Origin: Bolinopsis microptera
Taxonomy: Eukaryota > Ctenophora > Tentaculata > Lobata > Bolinopsidae
Assembly: GCF_026151205.1 (NCBI RefSeq)
Contig: NC_087082.1
Location: 9,868,901 to 9,932,900 of the forward strand
Length of the DNA: 64,000 nt
Direction of reading: 5' to 3'
Shown here: piece by piece, positions 1 through 62,880 of the stretch
How the letters are laid out: every line of letters begins with the position of its first letter
Position numbering within the stretch: position 1 is the stretch's first letter
Notes under the pieces: model-generated
The model's input: only the letters and a program-made list of their open reading frames with translations
The model's database searches: none
What the model was told of the DNA's origin: nothing
Program-made: the position numbers and the translations under genes

Positions 1-300
1 AATTACCCTCAGGCGCAAATATATGACTTTTGTATCTCGGCTTCAGAACGTTGTAGGGGCCTCTCTTTTAGCTCAAACTAACTGCAAAAGCCACATTTAC
101 ATACAAGCAATAAAGCAACATAGGGTTTATAGTGCTTAGCTTTGGAGATATTCATTAAAAACTGTTTTAACTTTCGTGCATCCTAAAATAGTAACATCAA
201 ACATGTAATTAATTTTGGTATCCTGGGCTAAAAAAGTCTTACAGACACTTTACTTGCAGCATCTCAAAATGTTCAGCAAGAACACATTCAGACAATATTT

Positions 301-15772: not shown

Positions 15773-15778
<6 letters not shown>

Positions 15779-15815
<37 letters not shown>
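15779..15815. repeat. (TA)n microsatellite
   Basis: About 37 bp of uninterrupted TA directly abut the start of RT homology at 15816. The breakpoint of the RT fragment therefore lies in, or was replaced by, a microsatellite. Confidence 0.95.
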
Positions 15816-15818
<3 letters not shown>

Positions 15819-22875: not shown

Positions 22876-22906
<31 letters not shown>

Positions 22907-31384: not shown

Positions 31385-31457
31385 CCAATCAAATTACCGG
31401 CAGTCCGTGTCACGTGGGTTGTGCTGCTCTCCGATTGGCCGGAGGAATGATCACGTG
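31385..31457. promoter_or_regulatory. CCAAT / E-box module
   Basis: CCAAT at 31385, CACGTG at 31411, ATTGG (CCAAT on the other strand) at 31434 and CACGTG at 31452. These are NF-Y-type and bHLH-zip-type sites (established for the motifs; binding here is inference). This module marks the left edge of the CACGTG-dense half. Confidence 0.5.
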
Positions 31458-34400
31458 GTTTGAGACAGCCTCTTACGGCGTGTCCGGAAAATTTTTCTTT
31501 TGACCGCTAAAACTGCGTTTTATGGTAATGGCATACTGCAACACCTTGCAGCGGAAATTCTGGTTTGGGCTGACCTGACAACTCAGATTTACTGTTTCAA
31601 TCTCGCGGCTGCATTTGTTAATAATTACAGTCGAAGATAATTTATACTTGATATTAGCACGGTTACATACGGTGAATCGTCACTCTGATAATATGTATGT
31701 TGTTATAGAGTTAAGTATTATAAGTGTGAATCTCAGTTTGATACGTTCAAACCTTAAATTGTTTAATAATATATGCGTCAGAGAGCATACCCTAATCTTA
31801 CACTTCCACTTCTACTCGCTTCTACAGTGATCCATGGCCTCTAAAATATTCGGTGATGGCGAAGAAGCAGCATGAACTACTGGAGACAATAATACCAATT
31901 GTCGTGAGAAGGCAGCCTAGCTGGCCGTCTACACTACTCCTTTATAAATAGTTTCCTTGTGTGCTAAATAACATCACTAATCCGCTACACCTGCCGTTAC
32001 TAGCAGAGCTCCGATTCTTAAGTCTTCTCTCTAAATCCTAGCTGATTATTAATAGATAAACTCTAGGAACAGCAGGTCTCTGCGATGTTGTTCGCTATGG
32101 GTTCGCACGGACTGTCCAAACATATGATCTGTTTTCAGAAAAAAAGGGAAAGAAGCTTGAAAATCAAATAGCAACATAATATCTGATTGAGTGAATTTTG
32201 GACAAGCCTCTAAAAACATCTGAGGAAGTATGATGATTTTCTATCGGCTTATTACTCATTCGCTGATAAGAATTGTTTTTATTTGAGAAACTTGGCCAAA
32301 TTAGAGTTTTACAGAAACTGGCATCTGATATGGTTTTGAGGTCACGAGTTGCTTGATTTGATGAAAGCGAAATTATAAAAATAAATTATAAAGTCGCATC
32401 TGTCAAGCACTCATTCATTAAACATTAAGTACTGAGGTTGAATTTTTTCGACAATTTGAACATGCTAGTTCCTGTGTTTTTTAGTTCGGCTAGTAAGAAT
32501 ATCACAGTTTTTCCTTAAGCCTGCATGTTTAGGTAATGATATATTAAATCACTGTTGAATCTTATTGGCCCACCAGCCGACCGGAGATCATTTTAGGGTT
32601 TCTATTCTTGTTCCTCTCATATTTTACTTTTTAAACTTGTTCCTCCACGTAACATGACATTTTATTTGTATACCAATTTTTACATACCTTGCACACTAAA
32701 TTATTCAAACAGTTCTATGCAGTAGTAGTAACAAAACATATAGCTGCACTTATTGCCGTATTTTGATGACAGTGTTTACGTATGTTTTTACCCGTTTGAG
32801 CGCGTGTCCCCATGCGTTTTCTGCTGACTTCCTATATTTACCTAATTTATATTAAGCATGCATAATATCATCCAGCTCATTAATAGTGTCTATCACTGCT
32901 ATTTTTAACTGCTCGTTATTTGAGCAAGCCCACCATGCAACTCCTCTATTTTTCAGTGTCTTATCTTCATATCTAATTAGCTTGTAATTAACATATCCCA
33001 CCCCGCTTCATCTTGTTAAACTGACGCATTTCCCGATTCCTCACTTGCTATTTACACCCCGCACGTTTCATGATGAAGGAGCAGACCTATGAAACAACAG
33101 AGAGAGGCGATAGTGAGAAACCCCCCTCTGCATGGGAATGCACTCTAGTATTTTATTAATTAACTTTCAGCTAGATCCTCACCACTACTTTTTGTGATAG
33201 TGCCCCAGCCATCCTTTTAATTCGTTCTTGCGTCAAATCAGATCGAAGAATCTACAAAACTATTACCTTTGCTCCCTGCAAATTAAATCTTTAAATCTAC
33301 ACCATTAAGGACCTTCCGGCCCATTTTTGTGGTACTCGTTTTTGAGCTCTCATTTTTGGAGCTTTTTATACCCCTTAAGTGGGTCAGCCTTGTAGTGATT
33401 GTTAATATTTCGGTAGCCGTACAAAGAGAAATTTAAGAAGGCCGTGTCTAAAAATTAGTAAAAATTTAAGGAATTTCCTGTAATTGCTGGGCAGGGAGCC
33501 TGGGACGGAGTCGCCTTGCTGTCCAAACTCCTGGCTACACGAGCCGTACTGCGACCCTGCATTGTCGCGATTTAAAAGGCAACATAATTGTAAGCTTTCC
33601 CGACCTGAGCTGACAGTAATGATCGCGAGTTGAAGTGAGGTGTGGGTTATCTCCCCCCGACGCGAGCCAGTTTTAACAGTTTTTTAACACCCAGCTCTTT
33701 TCAACCCGGGTCTTTTGTCGTGGTTCTCCGTATCAAAAACTACCAGCAGCCCCTCAACTGCCTGACTAAAGCCAGGGAAGAGCGTGTGTACAAATCGTTA
33801 ATTGTGAACTGTTATATTATGTGAATAGAGGATATGTTGGAGGGATCATATTGTCTCTGTTCTTTGTTTCCGCACCTTTCAGCTCTGTTTGAACTCGTCT
33901 GGCAGGAGGACTGCACGTTTAACAGGGAACTGTTTAACAGTTTCTCAAGTGGTGCTCTGTGGTTCTCTGCGGTGCTCTGTGGTGCTCTGTGGTTTCCGGG
34001 CAGAGTTCCGGGCATGAACTCTAACTTATTACACCTCGTGTCTCACTCAATCAGTTCTGTTTTTAGAACGGGGCGTGTGCAGCTGTACGTTTTTTTTCTT
34101 CATATCGTTGAATATTCAATTTCATAGGAACTTTGAGTTAGTTTTTCGTTATGCTTTTATTGAAATTTGTCTGTGGTTCAAACCACCGGTTTAGGGTATA
34201 CTGGTTACTGGTTCCTACTGTCCAAGCCAGAACTTTACTCTACTTTACGAGACAAACGGTACCAAAGTCGGTGGTTTTTCGAAAAAAACACCATATTTTC
34301 GGACTATTTTTTGTAAAATAAGGAGATTTTCAAAAATCCCTTAATACCATGATTTAATTTGGGGTAGGAAATTGGGCGGTTTTTGGAAAAAAATCCCCAT

Positions 34401-35401
34401 ATTTTCGTTCTCAAATCGTTTAGGTCACTGGAATTAGTCGTACATAAATATTTCTCGAAAGGTATATAATACTTATCACATACCGTTTTACCATCATGAG
34501 TGTACCACTAGGTGTGTCCGTGATATCAAGCAATGTAACAATCTGTTATCCACATCTCCATCATCTGTAATACCAGTTAATCGGTTTGATTGTTGGCCCT
34601 CAATCGGTTAGTTCCAGTTGATATGCGGTGATATCGGAACACCTTATTCCTAATTTTGGTGAACATTGTGTGGGCAGCTCCTAACCTCAAGCTGAGAGGC
34701 ACGTTGTGCTCAAGTGACTTGTACCCTATGTCACGTGACCCTATGTCACGTGACCCAGTATATTGACGCCATTATTCTCACTTGGTGTTTTGATACAGAG
34801 CCTAAGGCCAACAGTCAACTGTTTTCAGCAGTAGATTTGGTGCTTGCCAACTTCAATCAAATGGACAACAAGTTTTGGGGGACAGTTCAAAAACATCATG
34901 CACGCTCAGGATGATATTAATAACAGTTTCATTTACCTCTCACCAATCCGGGGCACATTTCATAGTCATCTGATGGTTTTAGGGGGTCACGTGCTCACTT
35001 TCGCGCTCTCGAGTGGCCAAAGATTTTTTGAGGTGTTATATTTTTGTTTAATATTTACACGAGGTCCTTAAAGCAGGGCCGTTTTAAAGTTTTTAAACAG
35101 TGAATTTAGCGCCGTCACTTTGTTCAGTACTCGCACCCTGTGGTTTCAGATTTAACCAGATTTCTTGGCACTTTTAACTCCATGATGAAGTGATCTAATT
35201 GTGCCAAAAGCAGTAAGCTATTTCAACATCATCTTAATATGACTTCATTCAAGTTTTTTTTATTTTAACTCGTTCAAGAGTTTCCAAAGTTTCCAGAGTT
35301 TCCAAACTCTGAAGAGGAACTGCGAATCCTGATGCGGGACAGGGATATATGGAGGGGGTTATCTGGCGTAGATCGGACTTAGTTCCGACATAGTAGTGGA
35401 T

Positions 35402-35455
35402 TTCCTTGCTGTACGGCAAGTTAACAAGGAACTGAAACTGCTAGGTTCCGTACAG
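35402..35455 (+). repeat. dispersed hairpin-forming repeat, copy 2
   Basis: TTCCTTGCTGTACGGCAAGT, then AACAAGGAACTGAAAC and GGTTCCGTACAGACTC. It corresponds to 25588-25655 at roughly 85% by eye. The ability to pair CCTTG/CAAGG and GGAAC/GTTCC is kept. Confidence 0.6.
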
Positions 35456-38400
35456 ACTCAACTCTGCACCCATGTCAATATGTTCATTATATGCAAGCCT
35501 CTTGATTTATAGTAGTAGTAGTAACTTGTTCACTGTAAAAAGTCACACTTTTCTCCGGAAGGGGACGGGTCCTAATTTTTTTCATCTCCGAGTTGACCTC
35601 TCTTTAGCTCTCATAGTTGAGTATGACTAACAGTTAACACGTCTATTTTAGCGACCCTGTTAAATCAGCTCCTTTCTCTGCCCAGGTGAGGTTGAAAAAG
35701 TTCGTTAAATTTCAACGTAAAAGCTACTAAAGATACAATTCCTGAGCCTTGTACCCTGAATATATGGACACGTGACAAACTCTCGGGTCAGCTGACTTGT
35801 TTTGGGATCACGTGTTCAATTCAAAGTGTTCGGTAAGATCGCTTTATTTACAAAAATCAGAGGGATCCCTGACCACTGGCCTCATTTTCACTCTCCTTAT
35901 CCATTATCGTCCATCCAACCCAATAAGTTTTTATTTGGTTTGGACAAAAGTGCATACAAATTGCGTGAACCAGAACTCATTCAAATAACGAATACGGTTC
36001 CTTTTACCGTGTTGTAATAGCCCTCAAGATCATCTTGGTGCCTCCCGGCTTGTTTTAAATGAGTGTAGCTTGACTTTTCAACTCGCCCTCACGATCTTAA
36101 ATTCTCTCTCTGTTTTTTACGTTCAAAGCCCACTCTTATCTCAAAAAATTCAAAATATCTCAATAAACACTAAACGTCCACGCTTCTGTCGTAATATCAG
36201 GCAAGGTATTACGAAAGTGAAGTAGTTTAATGGATCACAAAGTAAATGTTTTTTGTTAACCATTGCGCTTATCAGGGTGGGTGTCCACAAGTTCTGACGT
36301 TTCAGATTTTTCGCGGCGCTCTAAATTAGGCATTTCCTAAATAGTTAATACCGGAGCGATTTATTCTATAATATATTTTTTACCACTTTATGAAGTAGCT
36401 CTTTAGTTTGTGGTAAAGAATGGAACACACCCCGAATAGTTTCCTGGCCCCGTGGTTGAGATTGCTGGGGAGTCATTAGTACCCTCTTCATTTGATTTAC
36501 ATCTGACGTTGCCCTTTTTTAATCCTAGCGGGATAATTCTAGTCTGGTGTATGATTACCCAGTATTAGTGTGTAGGGCGTGCCGGTTTTTTGTGCTGCTT
36601 GAGACCACAGATCGCCCTCCATCACAAGGTTAAAAGGTAATGATCCGCCTGCCCTGCAATTAGTTGGATTTGATTTTTGGAAGCCACAAACTTTACCAAT
36701 ATTAGCTTTATAGTGGTCTCTGGGGGTAACCTTTTACATCAGGTTGCCAAACATTGGTATACTGCTTTATTACAGTTTAGTGTGAGAACAAACCGGAGGC
36801 TGGTGGGCGGGAGGCTGGTAGATGGGCTCAGTGGAATCATCGTGTGGCAACACTTGCGGTTTCTTTCAAACCCACTCATTTCAAACCCCTTAATTTATCA
36901 TTATCTTTTTGTCCGGCGAAATGTTCGTTTTACGTGTACTCTCATGCTGCTTGTGTGATGTCATTTAGTGGTTCTCTTGGTTCGGGAATCAATTATATTC
37001 CACTTCACCTGCTCTTGATGTCCGTTCTTTGTCTCAGCACAAAGGAATTATAAGTACCTATAGTTGTTACTCCAGTTTTGAGGATCAAATCGGCGCCACC
37101 AGCCCTTTATTATGAAAAAATCCTGCACCAATATTATGCTAATTCGTCCCAAGGTGGACGCTAAGGGCTCCTCTTTAAATCCTACTTAGAAAATCAGATC
37201 CATTGTGCTTTGTCAGGATTTTGAAGTATGCAAATTCCTGGGTTCAGTAATTGCCGATAATCGAGAAATTATCAGCTTTATTTAATTCATAAGCAAATGA
37301 ACAGTGGCCAGAGATCGGTGTCGGCACGCGAGTCACGTGACATTTCCTCGTATCTGATTGGACAGCTGCAACCAGGTCCAACAGGTAAAACAATCGTCTA
37401 CCGTTAATATTCATCACATTACTAGTGACGTAAACCTGGCTTTCAACCTATCATGGATGCTATCTCGGACCACGGACTAATCGGATCCTCCCTTTACCAC
37501 CACGTGACTCGTCACCATAAAGGGTCAGAATGGAGATGCTCATTGTCCGGGTGGGGGTCCTATCCTGTGCTACTAAAAACTATAGACCAGGTACAGCCCC
37601 GAACAATGGCCTGCTTCAGAACATTTTTCATAGATTTGAGCGAAGCTATTAACTCATTACATGCTTGCTAATCAGACCATCGCTTGACAGCTGTTCAGAT
37701 ATTTGATTTTTAGGAAACAAAAGGTAGGTTGGTTGAGCAGGGCGCGTGCCCCTTTATTCAGCTCACCTACGCTATTGCACGTGCGCAAGTCTCTGCTTGC
37801 CAATCAAAAATGCGACAAATTTAGAGGAGACGCAGACTGATTAGTCATAGCTGGTCCATTGTTTCATCCCCCGATAATCGTTATAAAGCATGCTCAGCTA
37901 AATATATATAAATCCTCCAATCAAATCACATTTTATCGTTTTGATGATGAGTTGGAGCCCAGTTTATTGCTCATGACTAGAATTGCAGGTCTTGGTCCCC
38001 TCATTGTTCAGTTCCGAACCTCATGATCTGGAACCGTATTCTGGCACGAGCCCCCCATTTGTTCACTTCCGCTCGACAATGTCAATATGAATAGTAATCA
38101 AAACACCGGGTCACCCTATTTTCTCAGACTATTGTCTTCAATCATTTAAACTATCCTCATTATTTAAATTCGCCTCATTAAGATTCCTGGTTCAAATCTT
38201 GTCTTTCTCTATTCGGTAGGTGGGGCGCATCTGTTGCGTCTCCTCAATTTTTAATAGAATTGGGCAATGGCAGGGAGGTGATCCACATTTTCGCTATAAA
38301 ACAACACAAGTCGTATAAAAAGTAGCTCTGTTGAGCTGGAGTTTTAAAAGTGAGATATAGATCATCTGTCCGTTATTACCCGCGTTTTTATTTACCGCCC

Positions 38401-41400
38401 TATTTAGAGCTGACTTAAGTCTGTATAAGTGTAATAATTAACACTACTTGCATGCTCTTCCGCTCAAAAGAGAACCCCGCTGCTCTTGAAATGTAGTCTA
38501 ATTGGGCCCTTAAACCGTCCTAAAATACCGGGAAACCCCACCACACGCATCTCCCTGGTCTCAACTTTCGTATGTTTCACCCTATCAATACCTCAATATA
38601 CGGGTATCCGCGGAAAAATACCCAAAAACCGTAGGGCAGTACAGTTAACTGGAATGGGAATCACTCGTACCCCTCGTGACGAACCTCAACCACGTGATCC
38701 ACAGTCGAGCTATCGTTGGTTAATCTCTGATCACGTAAGGGGGCTGGTATTGCGGTCTGTGTTTGAGTATCAGTACGGCAGATGATTTGACAGGATGGAG
38801 CACAATAAGGGGGATATTGTGTCGCCCTTAACACACAGCTTAATTTAGTGGTGCAAATTAAGTTTTTATCTATTCTTCTTGGTCTCTGTTTTTATCAATC
38901 ATCACAGCATTCGGGGTGTATAAGACTTGTGGTTTTTGTTGATAATTAGTGCAGAGATAACATCTTTTCCGTGATAACAAATGTCGTAATAATTCATTAG
39001 TATCCTTGAGATGCGTAAATTGTGCCGTCTCAAATTAATCATCGTTGAACACTAAACAGTTACTTTAGCTAATGGATTTAAAAGTGCACTTAAAAAGGCA
39101 TTTTAAAAGTGCACATTTTTGAGGTTTAACCCAATGTTTTAGTGCTTAACGCAGAGGTTATAATTCAGGAAACACCACTGATTTTAGACAGGTACTTATG
39201 ATATAAAATAGCTGGGTGCGCCGGCTAGATTTCCTAAAAACGCGGCTAGATCTGTCAAGTTCTATAGGTTATTAGAGGTGGCTGAAGGTAGAAGTACTGT
39301 TTCTGTGGTTTTATCACGTGTGACCTCAGCTCTTGTTAATTTGAACCAGTGTGTCTTCCATCCTACAGTTGAATCGCACTTTAGATCTAGATTCAAGATC
39401 TGTTTCACTTGGTTATAGCCTGCGTTGAGGTTATTCTTTAAGCAGATTTTAACTTATTCTGCGCATCTGATTTTATAAATTTAAAGCAAATTTAATATCT
39501 ATTTTACGTGATCCTTCAGCTTTCAGCTCTTATATTTAAATAAAATAGTCAAGAATTTGTTCTAATATGGGAAGTTGGGAACCTTCATTCTGTAATATTA
39601 AGTTGGGCACCTACATTCTGTAATATTTGACGTAGGACTTTTTATTACAGAGCGTATCCCTTTATAATTATTACAAAGCGCTCCTAGACAGCTATTCTTG
39701 TTGCCTGTTTCTGCTTTTAATTGAGAATATAGGAGTGTATGTGCGTGACTTTCTCAGGTATTTTAAAATTCTAAAATTTAATGGCATTGGTTAAACTAAC
39801 GGTATCAATGTTGTTCATGGTCATAACCGTTTTACTTTTTACTTTTCAGCATTAGATCCCTCGTGCTACTATGTAACCCTCGACAATTATAATAACCATT
39901 TGCTTGAGATGTATGGTGCTTGTTATGCCGGATCGAAGTGTCATGCCGGGACCAAGCGCTGGTCTTAGACAAGTTTTAGTATCTCGTAGCATTATCACTG
40001 TATTACCTTATTAAAGGTGTAGTGTATCTTGGTTACCACGATATCTGATTAGATATTCTTACAATTAGTTTGCCTTGAGTTTGTGATCCGTACCAGATCA
40101 GCTCTTAAAATGGTCCTTACGTAAACTGAAGGGTAATCGTGAGTCAACAAAAGTTGTGCTGTATTCTCGTCGCTTCTCAGCACTGTTTTTTGTTTTATCA
40201 TGTTGTTTAGACTTAATGTGTTTGGATTTTGATGTCACAACATCAGATTACATTTTTTTCCGAGGACTTTTGAAATAACTTATACAAACATTTATCTACT
40301 GATAAGCGTCTGGAATGTAATCTTGATATCATGTTTTTGATAATCGCGGGAATGTGAAAATAACTTCCAAATTTATAGTCCCCACCCTCTTATTTTCTGT
40401 TTCTCTCCGAGGAGTTTGCTCTCATCTAGTTTCACCGGATCATTCAGTATTTTCCTCTATTTAGTCCATCATCGAATCCTGCGCGAATCATCTTTTCTCA
40501 TATTTACAGGGTACAAGTTTTGTAAGATCGCACGCTAGTATAAAAACGAAAATTTAAATTTGATTGATCCGAAGGGTGCAGGAAAAAGCATTACTGGTCC
40601 TCCATTGGCTGCCTAGCCGCAGTACCACGATCTCTTGCTCCTGACTGGCGGAGAGGTTAGTCATGTGATCACCGCGTTTAATTCGAGTATAATTGTGTTG
40701 AATCACTGCAGTCCCCGCTGACCTGGATTAAAAAAGAACTCTCTCTCATCTTCTGGTTATGTGTCTGGGACCAAAAACTCTTGGTGTGTACTCACTTGCC
40801 TCTCTCATCTCATGTTTACCTTTTAGCTGTGTCATTGCTGTGACTCCTCAGACAAGCCCAGATTAGAATCATCATTCAGTGACCAGTCCAGGTACCGGCA
40901 CTGAATACTGAGGCTTGGTCTGACTGAAATCATTGATTATACTGCTCCAATTCACTGTTCTATCCCGTGTTCTGTATCTGCAGTGCCTCAGTTAACAGTC
41001 TAAGGGCGTGCGCGTTAACTTCCCCATAATTCCAGTCACTTTAGAAAGGGAGTTTTTGATTTGGAACGGCCGACTTCAGTGCAAGTTCGGATTACCAAAT
41101 TTTCACAAAACGGCAAATGACTTTACCGGGAATTTACGGACGCATAGGTGACCTCAAACATTTGGCCCTTGAAGAAGCCGTGTCAATGTTATTTTGATTA
41201 CAAAACCTAATAATTTACCCGCTTTCTCACGCCGCGTTTTTACAGTCAAAAGCAATGTGACAATGGCGACTGCTCAATTATCAATGCTACCTGACCGCGG
41301 TTACCCAGCCAATGATCCACTAAGCGGCATCTTCACATTTTAGTCAACAATAATCAATATAAGATTACCTTTAGTATCCCATATCGAATTGGAATCGTCC

Positions 41401-41500
41401 ATTTGCGCCTTTTCAGGGTATCTTATGCCGAGATAGAACCGTTTAAATGCAGTTGTAAGACACGCTCCCATTCCAGACATTTATCTAATATAAGCCTCTG

Positions 41501-41546
41501 ATTGGACTGTTTGAGTCACGTGACCATTATACAGCTCTCTGATTGG
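41501..41546. promoter_or_regulatory. ATTGG-N11-CACGTG module upstream of a small ORF
   Basis: ATTGG at 41501 and CACGTG at 41517 (start-to-start 16), with a second ATTGG at 41542. An ATG at 41660 opens MNYSSVRPQ, followed by a possible donor CAGG|GTAAAC near 41689. This could be a first exon, at low confidence. Confidence 0.4.
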
Positions 41547-42161
41547 TCAGCGTTTAACGCCGACCTAATCCCCTCCTCGTTCAGCAAATTGGCCCCTTTT
41601 TTACTTGAGCGAGCTTCAAGTGCACACAAAAACTCCTCTAACAACTTCTCGTTGAAGCTATGAATTACTCATCAGTTCGACCACAGGGTAAACAGCTCAC
41701 AAGGGTCAAGGTGATTCCTCTTAACCAACCAGAAGCAAGTATTCATGGTTTACACTTATTAAGATGGATGAAACCCGCTCCCTTGTTCCCTTCTCTCTCT
41801 CTCTCCCTTCTTGATTCTCTATTAGGGCCTTTATTATGGTTCTTGTCTTGCTGGTTTCGTTGAGGGACATGTCTCTTGTTGAGATTTTGTTTTGTTTACA
41901 CCAGTCAGGTGACAAGTAGTGACTTTCAGTTTTAAGCGCTGTAAAAAACACAGTTTGTTGAAGAGCTCATGAAGATTCGCTCGTTTTACTACCTCATGAA
42001 CATTGAACATGCAGGTAGCTCTGTTGATCCTGAGGTACCATGTTAGGACCTACTTAGCATAAGTGCCCATTAACCTCTAAATTTGCTACAAAACAATAAG
42101 ACACCCGTTTACTCGACCGCATCGGAGAGTGTAACTTGAGGTGTAAACTGTAACTGTTATA

Positions 42162-42591
42162 CTGCTAATATTGGGGCGTCAGTTGTCGAGCTGAGATCTC
42201 ACCACTGCTAATATTGGGGCGTCAGTTGTCGAGCTGAGATCTCACCACTGCTAATATTGGGGCGTCAGTTGTCGAGCTGAGATCTCACTACTGCTAATAT
42301 TGTGGCGTCAGTTGTCGAGCTGAGATCTCACTACTGCTAATATTGGGGCGTCAGTTGTCGAGCTGAGATCTCACTACTGCTAATATTGGGGCGTCAGTTG
42401 TCGAGCTGAGATCTCACTACTGCTAATATTGGGGCGTCAGTTGTCGAGCTGAGATCTCACTACTACTAATATTGGGGCGTCAGTTGTCGAGCTGAGATCT
42501 CACTACTGCTAATATTGGGGCGTCAGTTGTCGAGCTGAGATCTCACTACTGCTAATATTGGGGCGTCAGTTGTCGAGCTGAGATCTCACTT
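42162..42591 (+). repeat. 43-bp satellite, ten copies
   Basis: The unit starts CTGCTAATATTGGGGCGTCA and ends CTGAGATCTCACTA. Ten head-to-tail copies have exact 43-bp spacing (42162, 42205 ... 42549) and only a few substitutions, so the array is young or homogenised. Each unit includes the palindrome GAGATCTC. There are no unique spacers, so it is not a CRISPR-like array. Confidence 0.97.
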
Positions 42592-44285
42592 CTATAATCA
42601 GGAGTTAACTAGTTGACGGCCTACCCACAAGTAGCATTCAACTCGAATTATAAAGACCTATAACCTTTTATAAAACCTATCTTATATAATCTTCCCATTA
42701 GCATATCTATAACTGCATATCGACATAACATAAATATTAAATGTTACAATTGGATATTAGGTTATGACATCACGTGAACATAAAAACCTTGTATGGACTG
42801 TGTTCTAAAATTAGACAAAACCGTTAAAATCTCTCGCTGAAAAAATGCCAAGAAAGCATAGGAAATGCTAATAATTACTAGTCTCCAAAACGCTAAAAGG
42901 GCGCTCTTTGAGTAAATTAGGTGGTCGGAATATTTCGTGAACCCGAATTGGGGCTAAGTACAGTGTCGCCAAATGGGAGGTGCGTGAGTGGGGTAATTCT
43001 AATCCGGGGCAGGTCTGTCAAGCATGCCTGTGGTTAATCTGACCCTACTCTGTAACACCACAACTTACCTTCTAACCTCAAATATAACATCCGTGAGTGT
43101 CCTTTTTTAGCTGAAAACTGCATAATACATGGACTTGAGGGGGGTATTTTTAGAGTCTACCAAGTCAGATCATTAGTAGGAGCTCGTAGTTTTATTTCTA
43201 TTAACCCTCCCCGAATTTCTGCTGTACATAGTACCTAACTGTAATGCCAATAGTCCAACCACACTCTCCCCCCTAAGTGTTCTTGTGATAAATTTTATTT
43301 TTTACCCGGATAGTATACACGGGATTGCCGCGGTTTGGTGCGTGTATGTATTCAATCACCACTAGCCGAGCTCGTCTGATTGTCATGTGATGCCCTCCTC
43401 ACGTCTCATTGGTGGAAATAAGTCACGTGAGTCCTACACACGCTCCCTCCCGAACAAAGGACCTCTCAATTCTTTTCAATCCCCAGTTTTTGCACTGGGT
43501 TTAATGTTGTTTTAGTTTTAATGCGGAGAGAGAAAGAATGCCGGGTTTCCATTGGTTCTTGTTGTCCTGACGTCACCAGAACCCTGGCTGCCCATTGGTG
43601 GATGAGGTTGAGGGAGAGTGCTGATTAGCGGGTGACCCTGTCGGGAGTAAAGGGAAAATGGGTGATCACTGAGTAGATACCCGTTCAGGTTGGTGTTTTA
43701 CCGTCCGATGAGGAACCGAGACAACGTCTATAACTCCTCTATTGTCCTTGATACCAATTACTTTTCTCCGATATACCTTGTCTTTCAACTGTTACTTCAG
43801 TTTTTAGATGATACCAATAAAAAGTACTAGTTCCTCGGTATTTTAGGTAATTTAATTGTATTTATATACTGTCTTAAACAACTACAACTATCACGTTGCA
43901 CCACCAAAATAGATAGTATTGATCTATTTATATCATTTGACATTTCTTTAGCTTAGCTTCCATATAGCTCTCCTCCTACTCAGCTCTAAGCTAACAGCTC
44001 AGCTCACTTTCTGCGTGGCCATCCTACCGATAGACATTCAGGTCTCTATTTGTCTAATTTGTCACGTACTCAGGGGAGCAATGTGTTCTCTAAAACCTGT
44101 TCCTGGGTAGTTCAGAGATGAGTTTTTAGGTCAGCACCCTCCACCCCGGGACACACCACCGCTGAAGTGCTCACGAATAGTTTTTAGTAGGACAATAGCG
44201 ATTTAAAAGTCATTAAATCCAGACATGGGGACTAAGCACTTTATCCTATCGAGAATTTGTATTCCAGTCACGAGCGAGACGCTGT

Positions 44286-44315
44286 CCAATAAGGGAGCTG
44301 CGATTTGATCACGTG
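44286..44315 (+). promoter_or_regulatory. CCAAT-N19-CACGTG module
   Basis: CCAAT at 44286-44290 and CACGTG at 44310-44315, start-to-start 24. The same spacing recurs at six other places. Confidence 0.5.
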
Positions 44316-45697
44316 CCCAGCTTCTGTTGAATCGATCTGGACAATTTAATCAGTTTTAAATGCAGCGTTCACTCTCTATCAAAAAACTAGGTCTACAGTT
44401 CTAAGACTGCTAATCCGAATCAGACTTACATCTCTCTGGTTACTCATGACCGTGAATCGCCCTTCTTAAGTCCCTCGGTGTAATCATCGTAATTTTTATA
44501 GACTAATATTCAATTCTGGGTTCAGCCTACACTTTTGGCGGCAGTAATTGACAATGACGCTTCTGCGAATTGGTTTTTTGGGTCTTGGGTCTCAATCCCA
44601 GAAATCTTGCACTTTTATTACCAGGATCGGTTCTAACAGTTATCAAAGGATAAGAAACACATCTTTACCATTCGTTTGTCCTTCTTTCCGATATTTCGAA
44701 CATGAGATGAGATTAGAAGGTCTCTAACCGGAGTGGCCAACAACTTTACCTACCCTCTAACCGAAAAAATCATAAGAATTAGTCTCTACGTTATCACGGT
44801 TATGTTTCGATATGTATAAGAGTGGTTTGAAAAAAGATTACAGCCTCGAGCGAGTTCTACCCACGGTTCGTTTCTTAACGGTAGTACTCTAGCCGAACCC
44901 TTTTTGTATATATTATTCACTTTAATTGCTGGTAAATATAAACCTTAAACGATAGAGAAACATTAAAGTTGGTTATATTCCAAGGAGTTGTTGTCAAAGG
45001 TTTCTATGGAGTAATTATCTATCTTTATTTCAGGTTCTTGTATCTTACTTTTCTTCCCTTTTTGTTCCGTGGAATTATGTTCCGATGATATTACATTTTT
45101 GATTGGACTATAAACATGATCAGTAAACTCTCGGTCGCGTATTTTGAATGATAACTCGAGTTTTCTGTTTTTATCTCAGACTTCCTTCTTTCTATCGAAC
45201 TTTTAGCAGTCTTATATGTGGCTTTGCATAAATTTAAGCTATAAGTTTAAGTGTAGTTTAAAGTTTTCGCATGAACATTGAACAGTCGCTAAATATTGTG
45301 ATTCCTTTGTGATACCGAATACCGACTGATCCCCCATTACGATCGGCGATTAACTCCTAACACATTTTAGTCACGGTCAACACATAAATCACAATTCCAG
45401 ATTTTAGCTATTTTCTTGATCCTATCGAGGTTAGATCTAATCACATACAAGCGGTAAATTAAGAGTATCAAATGGCCCCTGGCCCTGACCCTGCCCCAGT
45501 ATTCAGTAAGTGAGATGTCCCACTCTACCAGTCTGAAGCAACTTTACAGCGCTGAGCTGGCCAGGTTAAAATGGTTTTTAGTGTTGTCACTTGGTATAAC
45601 TGGGAGAGTTAGCCAGAGCCATTAGCGACCAGGTGCCCCCGCTTCACCTTTTTAGACCGAGTTACAAGTAAAAAGTATCTACCAGGTGGTCCTGGGT

Positions 45698-45746
45698 CAC
45701 GTGGTTATTCTGAGGTCACGTGGTGTGCGATCTCCCGTGTGATTGG
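45698..45746 (-). promoter_or_regulatory. double E-box with CCAAT at fixed spacing
   Basis: CACGTG at 45698 and 45717, then ATTGG at 45742-45746. Read on the minus strand, CCAAT and the nearer CACGTG are 24 bp apart start to start. Confidence 0.5.
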
Positions 45747-46897
45747 TTCCTCGAGCTATAGTAACTTTACTTAGGGGGTTACTAATACCATTAACCTTGG
45801 GCCGTACTTTTACAATTGAATGTAATTGAAAAGATGTCAATTCCAGCCCTGTTTTTAATCTTTTTCTAGCCACGTGGTGGCGGATGACGAGCCGAGAGTG
45901 GCTCAACCGCCCATGTGGAGATCCTGAGCAGCGCGTTACTCGTCTGCAAGACGTCACGTGACACCACATGACACAACGTGTTATCATGTGAGTTACCAAG
46001 ACAATTTCATCTGCACTCCGTTTTTTACCTGTCAAATAATGACACGCTCAACAGAGCATGAAACAGCTCCACGAGCCCGCTGTCTTAATTCGATCCCCCG
46101 AGTTTTTGGGGCCCCTTGAGAACTGCTCCTCACTGCAACTCTCAACCACGCCTTGCCGGAGCCCATATTTTTAGGAATTACATCGTTTTACAGCACCGTG
46201 CAATAGAGCTATTTTCTCTTGAAATACCGTCACAGTTTTGATTGGAATGTTTGGTAATTGCAGTTCCAGTTCAGCAAACTTCACCCGTTTACTAGCTAAC
46301 GTCAGATTCGTGTTGCTTTTAATCAGAACCAGTGAACCGTGACCAGACTTTATAAGGTCACGTGACATTTGACAAGTGACAGTCAGCCACGTGACATTAC
46401 AACGGCTCTGTCTTCTTACAGTTGTTACTTTTCTTGCTCATCTGTCTCAAGTCTACTCGACAGAGTCACGGGGGCCTACTAGTACTAAACTACTAAGCGG
46501 TGTGTTTCACCCCATCTTTAGCGTGCTGTTTCTTTGCGAAGGTGCCAGATTGTCATGATGGGGCATGCCAGGAAATGATTTTACGATTTTAATTGTAAGT
46601 ACTGGTTGGTAAATGTTTAATAGTTTCTTCCCGACGAAATTGCAGGCTTTTCGTCGAGCAGTGCATAATTTCGATCAAAGTAAGATAAGGTTTTGAATTC
46701 TAACTTAAGATTTGACTAAACTCGACCGATTATTATCAAGTTATTGGTATTATAATTGACAGACCGTATTGACCAGTCCTAGCAACACGTACACCCTCAC
46801 CCTTAGCTTCTAACTTCCATCTAACTTTTTAATCCCAAATTATCAACCACACATCTTGACCATAATGCCACCATCAGATGAGAACTGCTGCTCTCGG

Positions 46898-46927
46898 CCA
46901 ATCAGATCGTTTTAACCGAGACACGTG
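46898..46927 (+). promoter_or_regulatory. CCAAT-N19-CACGTG module
   Basis: CCAAT at 46898 and CACGTG at 46922, spacing 24. Confidence 0.5.
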
Positions 46928-48121: not shown

Positions 48122-48501
48122 ATTAAACAGCCCCACCCCCACTCTTGTAGCCCCCACCCCCACTCTTGTAGCCCCCACCCCACTCTTGTAGCCCCCCCCC
48201 CACTCTTGTAGCCCCCACCCCTACCCCTCCACTCTTGTAGCTCCCCCCAACTCTTGTAGCTCCCCCAACTCTTGTAGCCCCACCCCCCACTCTTGTAGCC
48301 CCCACCCCACTCTTGTAGCCCCACCCCCAACTCTTGTAGCCCCACCCCCCACTCTTGTAGCCCCCACCCCACTCTTGTAGCCCCACCCCCAACTCTTGTA
48401 GCCCCCACCCCACTCTTGTAGCCCCCACCCCACTCTTGTAGCCCCACCCCCAACTCTTGTAGCCCCACCCCCCACTCTTGTAGCCCCACCCCCACTCTTG
48501 A
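48122..48501 (-). repeat. CTCTTGTAGCCCC minisatellite
   Basis: About 19 copies of a 19-21-bp unit, CTCTTGTAGCCCCCACCCCA with varying C runs. The minus-strand frames reading GATRVG/YKSG/LQEWG come from this array and are not genes. The purine strand is G-rich and could form quadruplexes (inference). Confidence 0.95.
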
Positions 48502-57044
<8,543 letters not shown>

Positions 57045-57366
57045 CCTCTCTTTCTGGGTGCACTTGTTATTCTCTCTCTATCTGGGTGCACTTGTTATTA
57101 TCTCTCTTTCTGGGTGCACTTGTTATTATCTCTCTTTCTGGGTGCACTTGTTATTATCTCTCTTTCTGGGTGCACTTGTTATTCTCTCTCTATCTGGGTG
57201 CACTTGTTATTATCTCTCTTTCTGGGTGCACTTGTTATTATCTCTCTTTCTGGGTGCACTTGTTATTATCTCTCTTTCTGGGTGCACTTGTTATTATCTC
57301 TCTTTCTGGGTGCACTTGTTATTATATTTCTTTCTGGGTGCACTTGTTATTATCTCTCTTTCTGGG
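57045..57366 (+). repeat. 28-bp tandem array, eleven copies
   Basis: GGGTGCACTTGTTATT starts at 57056 and recurs every 28 bp to 57336. The rest of the unit is TCTC-rich. Because 28 is not a multiple of three and the unit has no stop, the array is open in all three plus frames and produces three overlapping LSGCTCYY-type ORFs that are artefacts. Confidence 0.97.
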
Positions 57367-58623
57367 TCGTTCTCTCAGTTATCTTGTGTTCTTATCTCTT
57401 ACTTATTTCGTATTTGCTAGTGATTGGCGACTTCCTTTGAAATTCGCATATTATATTGAGGAGAAATCCGCATACATTGATGAGAAATCTGCATATATTG
57501 GGTACTATTATTTAGTCACGCAGTCACGCTCATATACTCAAAACACCGATTTTAATATAACAATATCGCAAACCAACGCTACCTCGAGTTTGTCATTTAT
57601 TCTTAAGGGATCATTTAAATTTAATGTGTTTAACCATGTCTTAAAAACATGCTGACATTTAAATAAATATCTGAAACACTCAGTAGTTTTGTTAAAAACG
57701 AGTTAGCGAAACAGTATGACACCGACCCAATATGGTCCTTCTATCATGGTTACACCTACCCTATTTGGGTAAGAGAGAGATGCTGTTAAAAACGAGTTAG
57801 AGGACCTATCTCTGCTTTGAAAAACTTATTGTTTCCTTGTTAATGTTCGCTCAGTTCCTTTTGTCGATAACGCGCTGTTTTTCTGGTTTGTTGATTCGAG
57901 GTTTAAAAGAGAAGGGGTTCTATGTGGGAGCTAGATCAGCTAAATACTAATAGAGCCACATGGTACTGCGAGAGTCCCTGTATATAATCGCCACTGGTCG
58001 CTCTTTTTGTAATTTGGTGAATTAAAATCAGATCATTATTTGTCCGACTAAGGCTGAAGTCTGCAGGGGATTATAACTTAATTATCGCGTAAAATTAACC
58101 AAAAATTATGAGAATTTGCTCTTAACAATCCGATAAAAATGTCAAAATTAACATTTAATTCCCGTGAATTAGGGACCAGTGCAGCTGGTGACCAGTCTTT
58201 ATATAAACAATCGTGTCTAGTAATAATTTGTTAATCTCTGCCTACCAACTGTAATCCTGGTGGCCTCTATTTAATTCACTCCTCTTTTCACCCCCGCTGT
58301 CTTCTGAATGGTTGGTTTCCATCACGTGGCCTGTTTTCTTCGCTCTCATTGGATATCGCACTTATTTCAATCCGATGTGTTTTTGTATTAGTTTTCCAGC
58401 GGTTCCCACCGTTTAATGTTATAACTTTAAGCTGATTAAAATTCTAATGAAAAACATAATTAAATTGTTAGAATCAGATCAATATCCAGTCTCTAGAATA
58501 TTGTTCTAGATCTACTTCCATATAAGGTATCACTACCTGACCACTTCTTCCATACAAGGTTCGTTTGTACACGTTAATGACCAAATAAGGAAGTAAACTA
58601 GACTGGTTGTTAGTCGGTGAGAT

Positions 58624-58752
58624 ATGGCCAGTACACCGCACGCTGCAGGTGATCCCGGTAAAAATTCATCTAAAATTAAGTTTAACCCGTTAGATCCTGA
58701 GTTGAAGCTACCTGTGCCGGCTGGTCTTTGTTTTTGCGTGTCGGGTCGCTGG
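58624..58752 (+). other. possible first coding exon, unrecognised
   Basis: ATG in GATATGGCC context opens MASTPHAAGDPGKNSSKIKF and continues to a donor-like GCTGG|GTGAGC. A CCAAT/E-box module lies 270-300 bp upstream (58323-58352). This is suggestive only; an overlapping minus-strand frame of 95 codons shows that open frames occur by chance here. Confidence 0.3.
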
Positions 58753-60463
58753 GTGAGCAGGACTATACTGGCCCGTCTTATTCCGGTATTTTGTAATTTG
58801 TTCTGATGTTGTGCCACCACCAGTTAATGGTTCAAATGGTCGTTTTATCCCATGCGTACATATTTAAAACCACTGAAATAAAGGCCTGATTTTATTTTGC
58901 TTCTGAACCACCAGAGATGAAAACCGCTGTCAAAACATAAACGGTGCTCATGCACCGAACACGATCCGAGTCACAGCAAAACCATTTTACACTAAAACCA
59001 CATAACAACCTCATGTGGAAAACTTCTCGCCCGCGGAGAATGACAACACAGTTCACTTACTTTTCCAGAAAATGTAGCTTATTGAATTATCACCACACAC
59101 CCCACACCGCTTATCACGTGTCAACAAACAGTTGCAACAACAACCACCAATACAATCCCTCCATCGCTTTCCCCCTAATTCATTACCAACAAATTAAACC
59201 GATTTCCTGACCTAATTAACTGAACCCTTGGATTTTACTTCACCTGAAATACGCCCTACAAGTTATAACAAACTGTAACATGCCCCCCATTTCTCAGCCG
59301 TTTCTCGAGAGTATTAGTGATATTTTTAATGAACCATGTTTCGATCTGTGCACAACAAAAACTGTCAAACTGTCAGAGTTTATTTGTCAGTGTGGAGTAT
59401 ATAAGTGCCCGGCCTCCCCCTCCAGATAAGTATTATTTCCCTTGTCCAGTTGTCGAAACTAGCTGGGTAATGACTTTAAAACGCGTTTAAGGATTACCAC
59501 GTGCTAGTTTGGGAATGGTTTAAGATCCCAGATTCGAGCTCCACCCTTCGAGCGCTCACTCCTAAGGTTTCACCCTCAAATTTGTAGTTCGTTTCTGGAA
59601 TTACCTGTGATTTTCTCTGCACTGTCACGTTACCACTTTTGAGAGACGTACCATAATGGATCCTGATTTTTCATTGATACCGTGCGCACGTGTGATGCTT
59701 TGCAAAGTTATTTGCATCCTAACTGTTGCTCGATCAGCTTCCCTCTTCACTTTCAATATCTGCTTGCAATGATCTCGACTTTAAAGTCGCCTGCATAATC
59801 ACTTTATAAGTGCTTTTAATCGCAAACTTTTAAACCCATCCACGAAATCTAGAAACCACTCTTCAGTACTATCTACCGCTCTTCAGTACTATCAGTAATT
59901 TCGCTATGTATGAGTCATATCTTTGTAGTAAAAAGTCTAAAAAAAAGATTCTATATCTACTTAAAACATTGCATTGTTTCTGCCATTTGCTTCTTAAGCT
60001 TTTTAAGGGCATACGTTACTACCGCCTCGCGGTAGGGTCGAGATAAAAGTATTATAAAAGTCCTACTATATAAAGAATTTTCAAACCATACAGATCCAAG
60101 TGTGAGAGAAAGAAAAGAATGAGAGTAGTTGATCACGGCTCGCCCTTACAAAAGTTTTTTTAGAAAATAATCTCAAATGCTTGATGATATTTTTCAAATT
60201 TTTTGATGCCGCTGTGAGAAGTGTGTTTTTAAACACGGGCTGAATTTTTCACTAAACAAAATTAACATGACTGGCGCTCGGCACGTTTTTCGTTTGGTAG
60301 GTGATTTCCGTTTTCTATTCTAACCGCCATCGTCAGCAGAACCCGGAACTCCTTGCATACTTGTCCTGCATTTCTGGTAATGTTGGTGGTCAGAGTGCGG
60401 TAGGGCAGCATGCTCTCATTCCTACATTCCCTCCTCATTACACCACATGACATCACCATGGTA

Positions 60464-60492
60464 TGACGTCATGACTACATCCCATGACGTCA
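60464..60492. promoter_or_regulatory. paired CRE sites TGACGTCA
   Basis: Perfect palindromes TGACGTCA at 60464-60471 and 60485-60492, 21 bp apart, about two helical turns. This is the recognition site of CREB/ATF bZIP factors (established). Two perfect sites so close are unlikely by chance. Confidence 0.6.
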
Positions 60493-62339
60493 TCACAGCA
60501 CCTCGTCAGGCAACGAGGGTGCTGCACTTGGGTCAGACCGGAGGTGATGTTTTTGGAGGGTCCGTATCAGGATGTGATAGTCTGGGGTAGTAGACCTCCG
60601 CTAGACCTCCATTAGATCTTAACAACACCCTCTGTAATAGACCCTGTGAGTAGAGTTCCTATGTTCAGGGTCTGGATCAGGAGGAAGATAGTGGTGTACC
60701 TAAGCTACCTTGTAACTGGGGGAGGGTGTGACAGGGTCTGTCTGAACTACAAGCTGACATTGTCCGGCACTAACCCAACTAAATCTCATTATTCTATTGA
60801 ACCAACTCCTTCTTCTCCGACTGATTTTCTCAGCATTTTTGGTTAAATCCCTTCTGATACCCGACACTGATTCACAGCTTGGTCATGTGACTGGTGGAAG
60901 CCAATCAGAAGTCAGTATTCCCGCACGTGCAGCTGCTCCCGACCAATCAGGAAGAGGGAGAGTCTAAAGAGACTGCTTCCATCTAAAAGATTACCTCACC
61001 GCCTCGTGACGAAAGGGCTAATCTTTTCACATGGGTCGGCTAACCAGGGGGTTTTGTGAAATGCAGCAGAATCAGGGTAGTTAGGATTTCATGTCAAATC
61101 TCATCTCCGGGCAACATTAGACAATGGGTGTGGGGTCTATAAACCATCCGATTTTCAGATGTTTAGTCAATGTGATAACCATGTAGTGGACGTGTTAGTT
61201 CAACCATTAACTCAGACTTTAACAGCTGGTATTGTTATCTAACTCGTTCCGGCCACAAGGTGGTAAAGTTGCCTTAAGTTGCTCTTTAACACAAGTTTTA
61301 GGTCCAATTTGGGAGTTGGGTATCCAATTTCCCGTGGCCTAACTCCACAGTTTCACTGCTTGAACTCTTCGCTTAGACCTACTCTAAATACAAATAGTCC
61401 GCAGTATTTTCTGTTACCAGCGTAGTTTGCGATTCATATTTACCTAATTATAATTGCTTTACGCCCGTGCTCCGGTTTTCTTTGAAGCGTTAGCTGGCTG
61501 ATGGTTGACAACAGGAGAATAATGATATTGAGCTGATAGGAGTTCCAGTCAAAGTGCCCCATGTTAAGCGCCCCACCAGCCAGCCCCTTGCACCCTACTG
61601 CCCCCAACTACACCAATAAGACTAAGCTTAATTAAGTACTGATACTGTTAATTCTTCCCCCATGAGATCATGATCTTTTTTGCTGTGAAAATGACGACTT
61701 TCTTTCAGCCTGTTTTCCGTGTTGCAAGTAAAAGTAACTTTGCAGCGGGTGTAAGGTAGTTAAGTTTGTGGGGAGTCAAGCGCTGCTGCACCCTGTTACA
61801 AGTTATCTTGGGACGTAACGTGGTGAAGTGACCACGTGATTTATTAACGACAGATCACGTGAGTCCACAGCTCCGTTATCTCGGTATTGGCCTGGTGAAC
61901 CAAGTGCAGATCGTGGTGCCCAGACCTCTCTCTTCTGACCAACTATTTAATATTTATCTTCTTCACTTTGTCAGCTGTCAAATCCCCGGCCCTCAGATTA
62001 AAAGTTCTGCAAGCCCCTACTTGTAACGGGGTTGACATTGCAATTCATTACGCAGTAGGGTCATGTGGTGTCCCTGTTCAAGAAGATTGACCACACAACC
62101 TCCCTTACTATCCCTCTAATAGCTCGGCTAACTGCACCGTTTTTTGTTAATTATCTTGAATTAGTGCTCTCTGATCCGGTTTTTATTCTCTTGTCACGGG
62201 ACAAGTGCCTTGTTTTTACTGTGCAGCCCTCTCCCCGCATTATTGGAGGAGAAACAATCAGCTCTGCCACGTGACACTCAGACCTTCAACCCTCGTGACT
62301 CGTAATTAGTTAAATTCGGGTCACGTGTCTTGCCCTGAA

Positions 62340-62369
62340 CCAATAGCAGGGCCGGGGTGGTGGCACGTG
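62340..62369 (+). promoter_or_regulatory. CCAAT-N19-CACGTG module
   Basis: CCAAT at 62340 and CACGTG at 62364, spacing 24. More E-boxes lie at about 62268, 62322 and 62606, and another CCAAT at 62381. Confidence 0.5.
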
Positions 62370-62880
62370 CGCCGTGATTACCAATGAGATGGGGACCGTC
62401 AACCAGTTGAGTTTTGGTTGTACTTACAATCTAGTAGTCATGACAACTGACACGTGTGCGAGGTAGCAGGTAACAAACAAGCTAAATTAATTGAAATTTT
62501 AGTCTTGGTAATCATCCGATTCAGCCGATTAGACCTCCACATTTATACCCTCCAATCGCGTGGCTCCTGCGAACCTTGAGAGCCATTCAGAGCTTAGTAC
62601 GCGCCCACGTGCACAGTTCAACCAATGACGGGCACTTAAAAATTAATACTAACGGTCACGCGACAACCAAGAATTTCTACTCAGTTAAAGTACTGCGTTT
62701 TTTACTCGGTCCCTACTTCGTGGTTTTACTTGTTGGGCTCCATATCACCTCTAGGAGCCTCGAAAAGAACATCTGACACAGTAACACTGTGGTGTTAGTC
62801 CACCACTACTACCAACACTATCAGCTCGTACAATACCAGAATCCTTTTGACACAATCAACTTTCGTCACGTCCCTTATAG

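Follow-up and report, generated by a model that had tools for sequence, protein, structure and literature searches.

The window analysed here, a 64,000-nucleotide stretch of the genome of the ctenophore Bolinopsis microptera, contains a 31-kb domain that is unusually dense in the E-box word CACGTG (Table 1). With tandem repeats masked, we counted 50 CACGTG in 31.3-62.7 kb, where 4.2 and 5.7 are expected from order-1 and order-2 Markov models; at order 3, where part of the word is already built into the model, the expectation rises to 19. To the left of 31.3 kb there are 3, with 3.1-3.4 expected. The domain runs on beyond the end of the window, at window-equivalent positions 64.3-72.6 kb (locus L026), and there covers frames with C2H2 zinc fingers among them. 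Its density of 12-16 E-boxes per 10 kb is high, yet two of 19 sampled 10-kb loci have 14 and 17; the reversed word, GTGCAC, totals 24 in random sampled loci. Bases flanking the E-boxes of the region are GT on 36 of 100 sides and AT on 13 of 100. Eighteen of the 50 sit in a module with CCAAT, and 32 are without CCAAT at module distances. A coding explanation of the region was rejected after a Pfam scan gave no match above cut-off; it covered 16 of the 23 stop-to-stop frames that reach 90 aa (~27-63.5 kb), the other seven lying in tandem or simple repeats, and showed one sub-threshold match to Tmemb_40. Neither Rfam families nor tRNAs were detected in the window.

Table 1. The E-box-dense domain and its CCAAT/E-box modules, in window positions
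Feature	Positions	Strand	Comment
E-box-dense domain, 50 CACGTG	31411..62611	.	
Chain CCAAT-26-CACGTG-23-ATTGG-18-CACGTG	31385..31457	.	CCAAT-to-E 22 (31411-31438, -) and ATTGG-to-E 18 (31434-31457, +)
CCAATCAG-to-CACGTG, 22 bp	37334..37361	-	
NF-Y/E-box/NF-Y triple ATTGG-16-CACGTG-25-ATTGG (read on +)	41501..41546	+	41-bp unit
ATTGG-16-CACGTG (read on +)	43408..43429	+	
CCAAT-24-CACGTG	44286..44315	+	
CCAAT-24-CACGTG	45717..45746	-	
CCAATCAG-24-CACGTG	46898..46927	+	
TCAAT-24-CACGTG	49519..49548	+	one mismatch to CCAAT word
CCAAT-22-CACGTG	50239..50266	-	
CCAAT-24-CACGTG	53288..53317	-	
CCAAT-23-CACGTG	53504..53532	-	
41-bp frame twice: ATTGG-16-CACGTG-25-ATTGG-16-CACGTG (read on +)	53902..53964	+	
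CCAAT-24-CACGTG	58323..58352	-	
Triple CCAATCAG-23-CACGTG-19-CCAATCAG	60901..60947	+	
Alternating chain CACGTG-18-CCAAT-24-CACGTG-17-CCAAT	62322..62385	+	
ATTGG-15-CACGTG (read on -)	62606..62626	-	

Within this domain the two words recur at two preferred distances. CCAAT precedes CACGTG by 22-25 bp in 13 pairs, eight of them at exactly 24, and ATTGG precedes CACGTG by 15-18 bp in nine pairs, five of them at exactly 16. Chance clustering of CCAAT and CACGTG was excluded by two controls. When the CCAAT map was shifted circularly by random amounts 5000 times, the means were 0.62 pairs at 22-25 bp (maximum 5) and 0.63 at 15-18 bp (maximum 4), and the fullest 4-bp distance bin in any shift held 6; in 5000 jittered maps, in which CCAAT positions were moved by at most 60 bp so that local clustering was retained, the means were 1.5 (maximum 9) and 1.3 (maximum 7), and 0.06% of jitters gave five pairs at any single ATTGG distance. 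None of the shifted or jittered maps attained 13 or 9. The observation of the first-pass annotation is confirmed, and the positions that it listed are all correct: 24 bp at 44286, 46898, 62340 and 49519 (TCAAT) and, on the opposite strand, at 45746, 53317 and 58352; 22-23 bp at 37361, 50266, 53532 and 60901; and, for ATTGG, 16 bp at 41501, 43408, 53902 and 53943, 15 at 62626 and 18 at 31434. It undercounted the pairs, omitting those of 24 bp at 53947(-) and 41546(-) and of 22 bp at 31438(-), as well as ATTGG-to-E-box pairs at 62385(-), 62344(-) and 60947(-).

The grammar attributed to this 31-kb stretch is present there but is not local; it is a property of the whole genome. Counts were made on an assembly of 264.65 Mb, 258.07 Mb of it in 13 contigs; for Bolinopsis microptera, 13 scaffolds with 97.23% of bases and a 1n size of ~254 Mb are published (PMC10232365). 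A flat distribution of distances had been put forward as the result that would speak against fixed geometry, and the distribution is far from flat: CCAATCAG precedes CACGTG by exactly 24 bp at 1231 places (663 + 568; reversed control 0 + 0), and ATTGG, within CTGATTGG, precedes it by exactly 16 bp at 1497 (706 + 791; control 0 + 0), many of these being near-identical copies. Both spacings are halves of one 41-bp frame, CCAATCAG-24-CACGTG-17-CCAAT, which occurs complete 698 times (400 + 298; control 0 + 0). Looser patterns behave similarly, with 903 + 833 matches to CCAATCAGN{2,32}CACGTG (reversed control 4 + 7) and 1000 + 1105 to CTGATTGGN{2,32}CACGTG (reversed control 1 + 11), while bare CCAAT at gaps of 9-39 gives a weaker excess (5040 + 5132 vs 1267 + 1353), with many repeat copies among the matches listed. 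Near-identical copies make up much of these genome-wide totals: when those among the 100 listed rows are collapsed, 31 of 73 stand at 24 bp and only 16 of 51 at the ATTGG distance of 16; 26 ATTGG-to-E-box rows among the matches listed fall at 15-18. Nineteen sampled 10-kb loci (190 kb) yielded four modules at 15-18 bp and no CCAAT-to-CACGTG pair at 22-25 bp.

NF-Y binds the consensus YRRCCAATSR. In 40 chosen sites, the context of CCAAT is NF-Y-like by comparison with this consensus: the three preceding bases, on which the search placed no selection, conform to YRR (C/T 0.83 at -3, A/G 0.95 at -2 and A/G 0.85 at -1), whereas the CAG that follows CCAAT was imposed by the search pattern. An additional CCAAT on the same strand is found at -32 to -29 in 12 of the 40 sites and at +41 to +43 in eight, and a single ATTGG starts within -60 to +79 of any of them. 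Start to start, same-strand CCAAT pairs peak at 30 bp (8 of 40 collapsed pairs) and 41 bp (10 of 40), and CACGTG is present within at least five of the ten 41-bp rows. Downstream of the 40 sites, we saw no core-promoter element at a set position. The TATA-like word CTTTATAA was also considered and rejected; it occurs 12 times against 2.3 expected, but by eye holds no fixed position relative to the modules.

Candidate proteins are encoded in the genome. For NF-Y, the search was for the NF-YA domain, which is found at three loci; there are also two USF-like bHLH proteins, whose best PDB matches are USF2 8ia3 and USF 1an4, and one MITF/TFE-like bHLH protein. MAX-, MYC- and SREBP-like bHLH proteins were also recognized, by eye from their translated basic regions, among the 20 that were fetched of 29 matches. 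The exact spacings suggest that two gene-control proteins would be bound side by side in fixed geometry, and we think it likely that the modules are composite sites for NF-Y, at CCAAT, and a USF/MITF-type bHLH-zip dimer at the TCACGTGA-like E-box. The dimer would sit at a fixed place beside the NF-Y trimer, 24 bp downstream of the start of CCAAT or, alternatively, 17 bp upstream of the start of the next CCAAT, which would leave room in the 41-bp frame, about four helical turns, for two NF-Y and one E-box factor; occupancy of the sites by such proteins, and cooperative binding between them, are predicted. On the same reading, the 31-kb cluster probably controls the C2H2 zinc-finger gene directly on its right, as a regulatory region made up of many elements.

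It could instead be argued that the spacings are a fossil of one 41-bp satellite, or of a mobile repeat carrying it, which spread and then decayed until CCAAT and CACGTG were its only recognizable remains. In this genome the 41-bp unit has indeed spread, both as satellites and in other dispersed copies: besides the 698 complete triples, arrays on C1, C2 and C3 carry the unit with high flanking identity between array copies, near-identical copies of CTGATTGGCTGAATCGTATCACGTG are scattered, and the window modules at 41.5 and 53.9 kb align over 50 bp at 82%. Spacers are also nearer to the satellite than chance, with means of 7.0 of 16 matches in 41 fetched sites and 6.8 of 16 in the eight exact-24 window modules against a null of 4.1, so that shared ancestry accounts for part of the pattern. 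Yet among window modules more than 330 bp apart only the 41.5/53.9-kb pair aligns, and BLAST (E 1e-4) among 40 fetched sites aligned 15 of 780 pairs, 14 of which cover the module and extend past it by no more than ~30 bp (maximum 61 bp), the remaining one lying in flank. The flanks of the chosen sites are almost all unrelated, and the instances examined are not all copies of a single dispersed family with high flanking identity, even though the satellite and dispersed repeats with identical geometry exist. Moreover, about half of the spacers bear no resemblance to the satellite: in 20 of the 41 sites the spacer agrees with it at no more than 6 of 16 positions (null mean 4.1, 95th percentile 7). 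These sites nonetheless retain YRR before CCAAT, and nine of these 20 have a CCAAT at -32 to -29, a spacing absent from the 41-bp unit. We regard a satellite origin for the whole pattern as unlikely; of the alternatives offered by the first-pass annotation, a composite complex or dispersal of an ancestral module, both appear to hold, in different copies.

An E-box excess that is a by-product of word-level bias, or of minisatellites containing E-boxes only, would make the pairing with CCAAT incidental. TCACGTGA does occur 28225 times genome-wide against 4197 for its reverse, and many of the 100 listed places are in E-box arrays, but neither the density-preserving jitter nor the exact-spacing controls, which stand at zero, reproduce the spacings, and we give this explanation almost no credence. 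If the geometry is real, the proteins could still be others, such as a different CCAAT binder or a MAX/MYC- or CLOCK/ARNT-type factor at the E-box, and the MAX-, MYC- and SREBP-like genes offer candidates. Against this stand the NF-Y-like context of CCAAT and the human data, where, in the portion available, fixed spacing is reported for USF1/2 and MITF and not for MYC (PMC7793273); a different set of proteins seems to us improbable.

The composite-site reading also invites comparison with human NF-Y, as described in the available parts of the publications cited. The human E-box of USF1/2 and MITF lies 10-12 bp 5′ of CCAAT (PMC7793273), and another report places CCAAT 17 or 18 bp 3′ of the E-box (PMC7046753). 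The exact-16 class, five in the region, has the identical orientation with an 11-bp gap, or 16.5 bp centre to centre; since the human distances were measured differently (centre to centre or edge to edge), this arm would match the published geometry to within ~1-2 bp at best. The opposite order, in which CCAAT starts 24 bp before the E-box does (a 19-bp gap), is about equally common here; the human accounts consulted do not describe it, and a literature search, mostly at the level of titles and abstracts, found no published report of such an arm; a similar search for ctenophore NF-Y motifs gave only work on bilaterian enhancers. One arm may be close to the human arrangement and the other new. 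Human CCAAT direct repeats peak at 31, 41 and 52 bp, with NF-Y contacts from -7 to +17 (PMC4982600), resembling the peaks at 30 and 41 described above, although here the 41-bp gap often contains an E-box and the short peak is at 30; the comparison may be off, as the human Methods describe edge-to-edge distances and the text takes 31 to be a helical period. In one study, occupancy by NF-Y and USF is nearly mutually exclusive at human promoters (PMC6238301), and in another many joint sites lie in chromatin that is inactive or belongs to HERV/LTR elements (PMC7793273), so joint binding need not mark an active enhancer. In human LTR12/HERV elements, as here, a repeat-borne composite site was amplified genome-wide (PMC4982600, PMC7793273), but the carriers in Bolinopsis are a 41-bp tandem satellite and other dispersed repeats. 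The CTEP1/CTEP2 loop-anchor motif of Mnemiopsis is likewise a regulatory motif that is sequence-specific and abundant in a ctenophore. It differs in being bound by C2H2 proteins and in being GC-rich, with two CpGs, CACGTG having one CpG and CCAAT none, and the main text of that paper mentions neither E-box nor NF-Y (PMC12221973).

We speculate, tentatively and with more doubt than conviction, that the frame CCAAT-24-CACGTG-17-CCAAT, often accompanied 30-31 bp upstream by a further CCAAT, is a regulatory unit that goes far back in animal evolution. Its E-box-then-CCAAT half would have been kept from ctenophores to humans; the CCAAT-then-E-box half would be a ctenophore addition, and satellites, dispersed repeats and independent origin would have multiplied the unit there into a main cis-regulatory code, clustered at regulators like the zinc-finger gene beside this domain. 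Should the human match hold, the stereo-specific partnership would rank with the oldest regulatory grammars known in animals. The genome also offers, after human LTR12, a second example of repeats spreading a composite site. It is rare for fixed spacing of motifs to be visible from sequence alone, and here it is evident by eye within 64 kb; the genome supplies many hundreds of natural sites at which spacing and helical phase could be tested against cooperative binding.

Elsewhere among the loci, the best PDB match of L074 is the ML032222a iGluR, which we take to be from Mnemiopsis, and L073 is closest to vertebrate kainate receptors.

The regular spacing between CCAAT and the E-box CACGTG is secure, both in its geometry and in its genome-wide excess. 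A rigid spacing of this kind had been claimed by the first-pass annotation, which read it as a composite NF-Y/bHLH-zip complex or a dispersed ancestral module, and all the coordinates that it named proved correct when rechecked in the window sequence. Between 31.3 and 62.7 kb of the window (the cluster), CACGTG occurs 50 times, against 4.2–5.7 expected under order-1 and order-2 models and 19 under order 3; the left 31.3 kb holds 3, against 3.1–3.4 expected. Modules comprise 13 CCAAT-to-CACGTG pairs at 22–25 bp start to start (class A; 8 at 24; 4 on the plus strand, 9 on the minus) and 9 ATTGG-to-CACGTG pairs at 15–18 bp (class B; 5 at 16), and take in 18 of the 50 E-boxes. For classes A and B respectively, 5000 circular shifts gave means of 0.62 (maximum 5) and 0.63 (maximum 4), and 5000 jitters of up to 60 bp gave 1.5 (maximum 9) and 1.3 (maximum 7). 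The window's 43-bp tandem array, with one ATTGG per unit, was set aside from its CCAAT-pair counts.

The window spans C11:9868901-9932900 of a eukaryotic assembly that comprises 264.65 Mb in 232 contigs, of which 13 chromosome-scale contigs hold 258.07 Mb (97.5%). With the same pattern reversed without complementing as the control, bare CCAATN{9,39}CACGTG gave 5040+5132 matches against 1267+1353, CCAATCAGN{2,32}CACGTG 903+833 against 4+7, and CTGATTGGN{2,32}CACGTG 1000+1105 against 1+11; the second of these patterns at exactly 24 (663+568) and the third at exactly 16 (706+791) each had control counts of 0+0. Place-level analyses used the first 100 matches listed per search, in contig order from C1. 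Among those listed for class A, 57 lie at exactly 24, and collapsing near-copies (equal length, at most 5 mismatches) left 73, with 31 at 24 and 51 at 22–25. Among those listed for class B, 59 lie at exactly 16; collapsing (at most 3 mismatches) left 51, with 16 at 16 and 26 at 15–18. Same-strand CCAATCAG pairs are also in excess (851+1121 against 149+188). Their two commonest distances are 30 bp (8 pairs) and 41 bp (10 pairs) among the 40 left of the matches listed, after a collapse whose first step was by eye.

The two spacings are one frame summing to 41 bp, not two separate grammars. Along the CCAAT strand, class A is CCAAT followed by the E-box at 24, and class B is the E-box followed by CCAAT at 17, equivalent to ATTGG-to-E-box 16 on the other strand. 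Three chains in the window display this frame directly (Table), and the triple CCAATCAGN{16}CACGTGN{11}CCAAT occurs 400+298 times genome-wide against 0+0 in the control.

Table. Locations of chains, repeats and candidate coding sequences (E, E-box)
Feature	Location	Description
Chain	window 53902	ATTGG-16-E-25-ATTGG-16-E
Chain	window 41501	ATTGG-16-E-25-ATTGG
Chain	window 62322	E-18-CCAAT-24-E-17-CCAAT
41-bp tandem array	C2:22904583-22906391	frame geometry
41-bp tandem array	C2:10945048-10945790	frame geometry
Minisatellite L022	C1:414900	period 22 bp
Minisatellite L023	C1:492350	period 18 bp
Minisatellite L024	C1:1792200	period 22 bp
Minisatellite L025	C1:387600	period ~19-24 bp
Minisatellite L021	C1:843300	period 41 bp
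CCAAT array	C1:2586865-2587403	51-bp unit
CCAATCAG array	C1:11661569-11662044	39-bp unit
Tandem repeat	window 42160-42590	43 bp
Tandem repeat	window 48129-48507	20/41 bp
Tandem repeat	window 57046-57367	28 bp
GAG-rich tract	window 4064-6395	long
Reverse-transcriptase frame	window 11336-12748	
Reverse-transcriptase frame	window 15696-17030	
Reverse-transcriptase frame	window 22426-22953	below Pfam cut-off
NF-YA	C7:5786332-5786499	uninterrupted frame, 375 aa
NF-YA	C11:8466648-8467029	split copy
NF-YA	C4:10257949-10259519	split copy

Against its own reading, the first-pass annotation had set the case in which all instances are copies of one repeat with high flank identity. Tandem arrays of the 41-bp satellite unit do exist, as do near-identical CTGATTGGCTGAATCGTATCACGTG copies dispersed in the genome; most site pairs, however, did not align. 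We compared 430 bp around 41 sites hand-picked, outside the listed arrays, from the 100 exact-24 matches listed; at least two of the chosen sites (L034, L037) proved to adjoin local arrays. BLAST (E 1e-4) aligned 15 of the 780 pairs among the first 40 sites; 14 of these alignments cover the module and extend at most ~30 bp past its edge, and the other (L037/L041) spans 25 bp of flank. Across the 40 sites, more than 0.35 bit outside the imposed words is found only at −3..−1, 8, 12, 14, 22, 23 and 31, an additional same-strand CCAAT stands at −32..−29 in 12 and at +41..43 in 8, and a single ATTGG starts between −60 and +79. When window modules separated by over 330 bp are compared, those at 41.5 and 53.9 kb form the sole aligning pair.

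Spacers match the satellite unit at a mean of 7.0 of 16 positions in the 41 sites and 6.8 in the 8 exact-24 window modules, against a null of 4.1. Satellite-unlike spacers (at most 6/16) occur in 20 of the 41 sites; this group retains the YRR context before CCAAT, and 9 of its members carry CCAAT at −32..−29. Since both kinds of spacer are present, the exact-24 sample is a mixture: part of it derives from the satellite or has the satellite's additional bases, and the other copies have the geometry without satellite sequence. Spacer positions 12–14 show a weak preference for C at 12 and G at 14 (as in CAG), seen also in some CCAAT pairs lacking an E-box and weaker in the 20 satellite-unlike sites; it may thus be left over from the satellite or mark a third point of contact.

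The composite sites are likely to bind NF-Y together with a USF-type factor. NF-YA domains are encoded at three loci, of which the single-frame copy on C7 is possibly a retrocopy. An HLH model has 29 matches in the genome; among the 20 examined, the best PDB matches were USF2/USF for two (L083, L085) and MITF for one (L078). In human studies, USF1/2 and MITF motifs lie 10–12 bp 5′ of CCAAT and MYC has no fixed distance (PMC7793273), and the NF-Y/USF1 distance is 17 or 18 bp with the E-box upstream (PMC7046753). Class B has the same orientation, with an 11-bp gap and 16.5 bp centre to centre; since the papers measure differently, agreement extends only to ~1–2 bp. Counted against the NF-Y/USF reading are the near mutual exclusivity of the two factors at human promoters in another study (PMC6238301) and the fact that joint sites often lie in chromatin that is inactive or of the HERV/LTR type (PMC7793273). 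For CCAAT direct repeats in human, PMC4982600 gives peaks at 31 and 41 bp (edge to edge, per its Methods), and it places NF-Y contacts from −7 to +17; within those bounds a 41-bp period would leave ~16 bp between two NF-Y trimers, room for one bHLH dimer. The E-box-then-CCAAT arm and the direct repeats are already known from human promoters; the accessible parts of the literature searched contained no report of the 24-bp arm, the 41-bp alternation or the satellite spread.

The cluster has 12–16 E-boxes per 10 kb. The 19 loci sampled for comparison have a median of 3, with values of 14 and 17 at two of them. The cluster's 31.4 kb contain 13 + 9 modules (class A + class B) against 0 + 4 in 190 kb sampled. 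In coordinates continued beyond the window's end, a 366-aa open frame without a Pfam match begins at 67.1 kb and a C2H2-finger frame lies at 70.6–71.0 kb (+ strand), which we assume to be one gene; E-box density stays high up to ~72.6 kb and then falls. From its position, the cluster is plausibly the upstream regulatory domain of this zinc-finger gene, and because modules occur on both strands, enhancers fit better than promoters. Reverse-transcriptase frames lie in the left 31 kb.

CACGTG also recurs in nearly every unit of five minisatellites with differing spacer sequences, as if E-box arrays had arisen repeatedly. CCAAT spacings alternate between 21 and 30 bp in the 51-bp array, with no CACGTG among the units listed, and the 39-bp array carries a degenerate E-box-like CATGTC or CATGCC at about the CACGTG position of the 41-bp unit. 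Among other frames, one iGluR frame (L074) has as its best PDB match ML032222a, an iGluR of Mnemiopsis, and a second (L073) most resembles the kainate receptors of vertebrates. PF10613 (glutamate-receptor ligand-binding) has 32 genome matches; many of these fall within long frames without interruption, and C12 and C3 each carry clusters that account for several.
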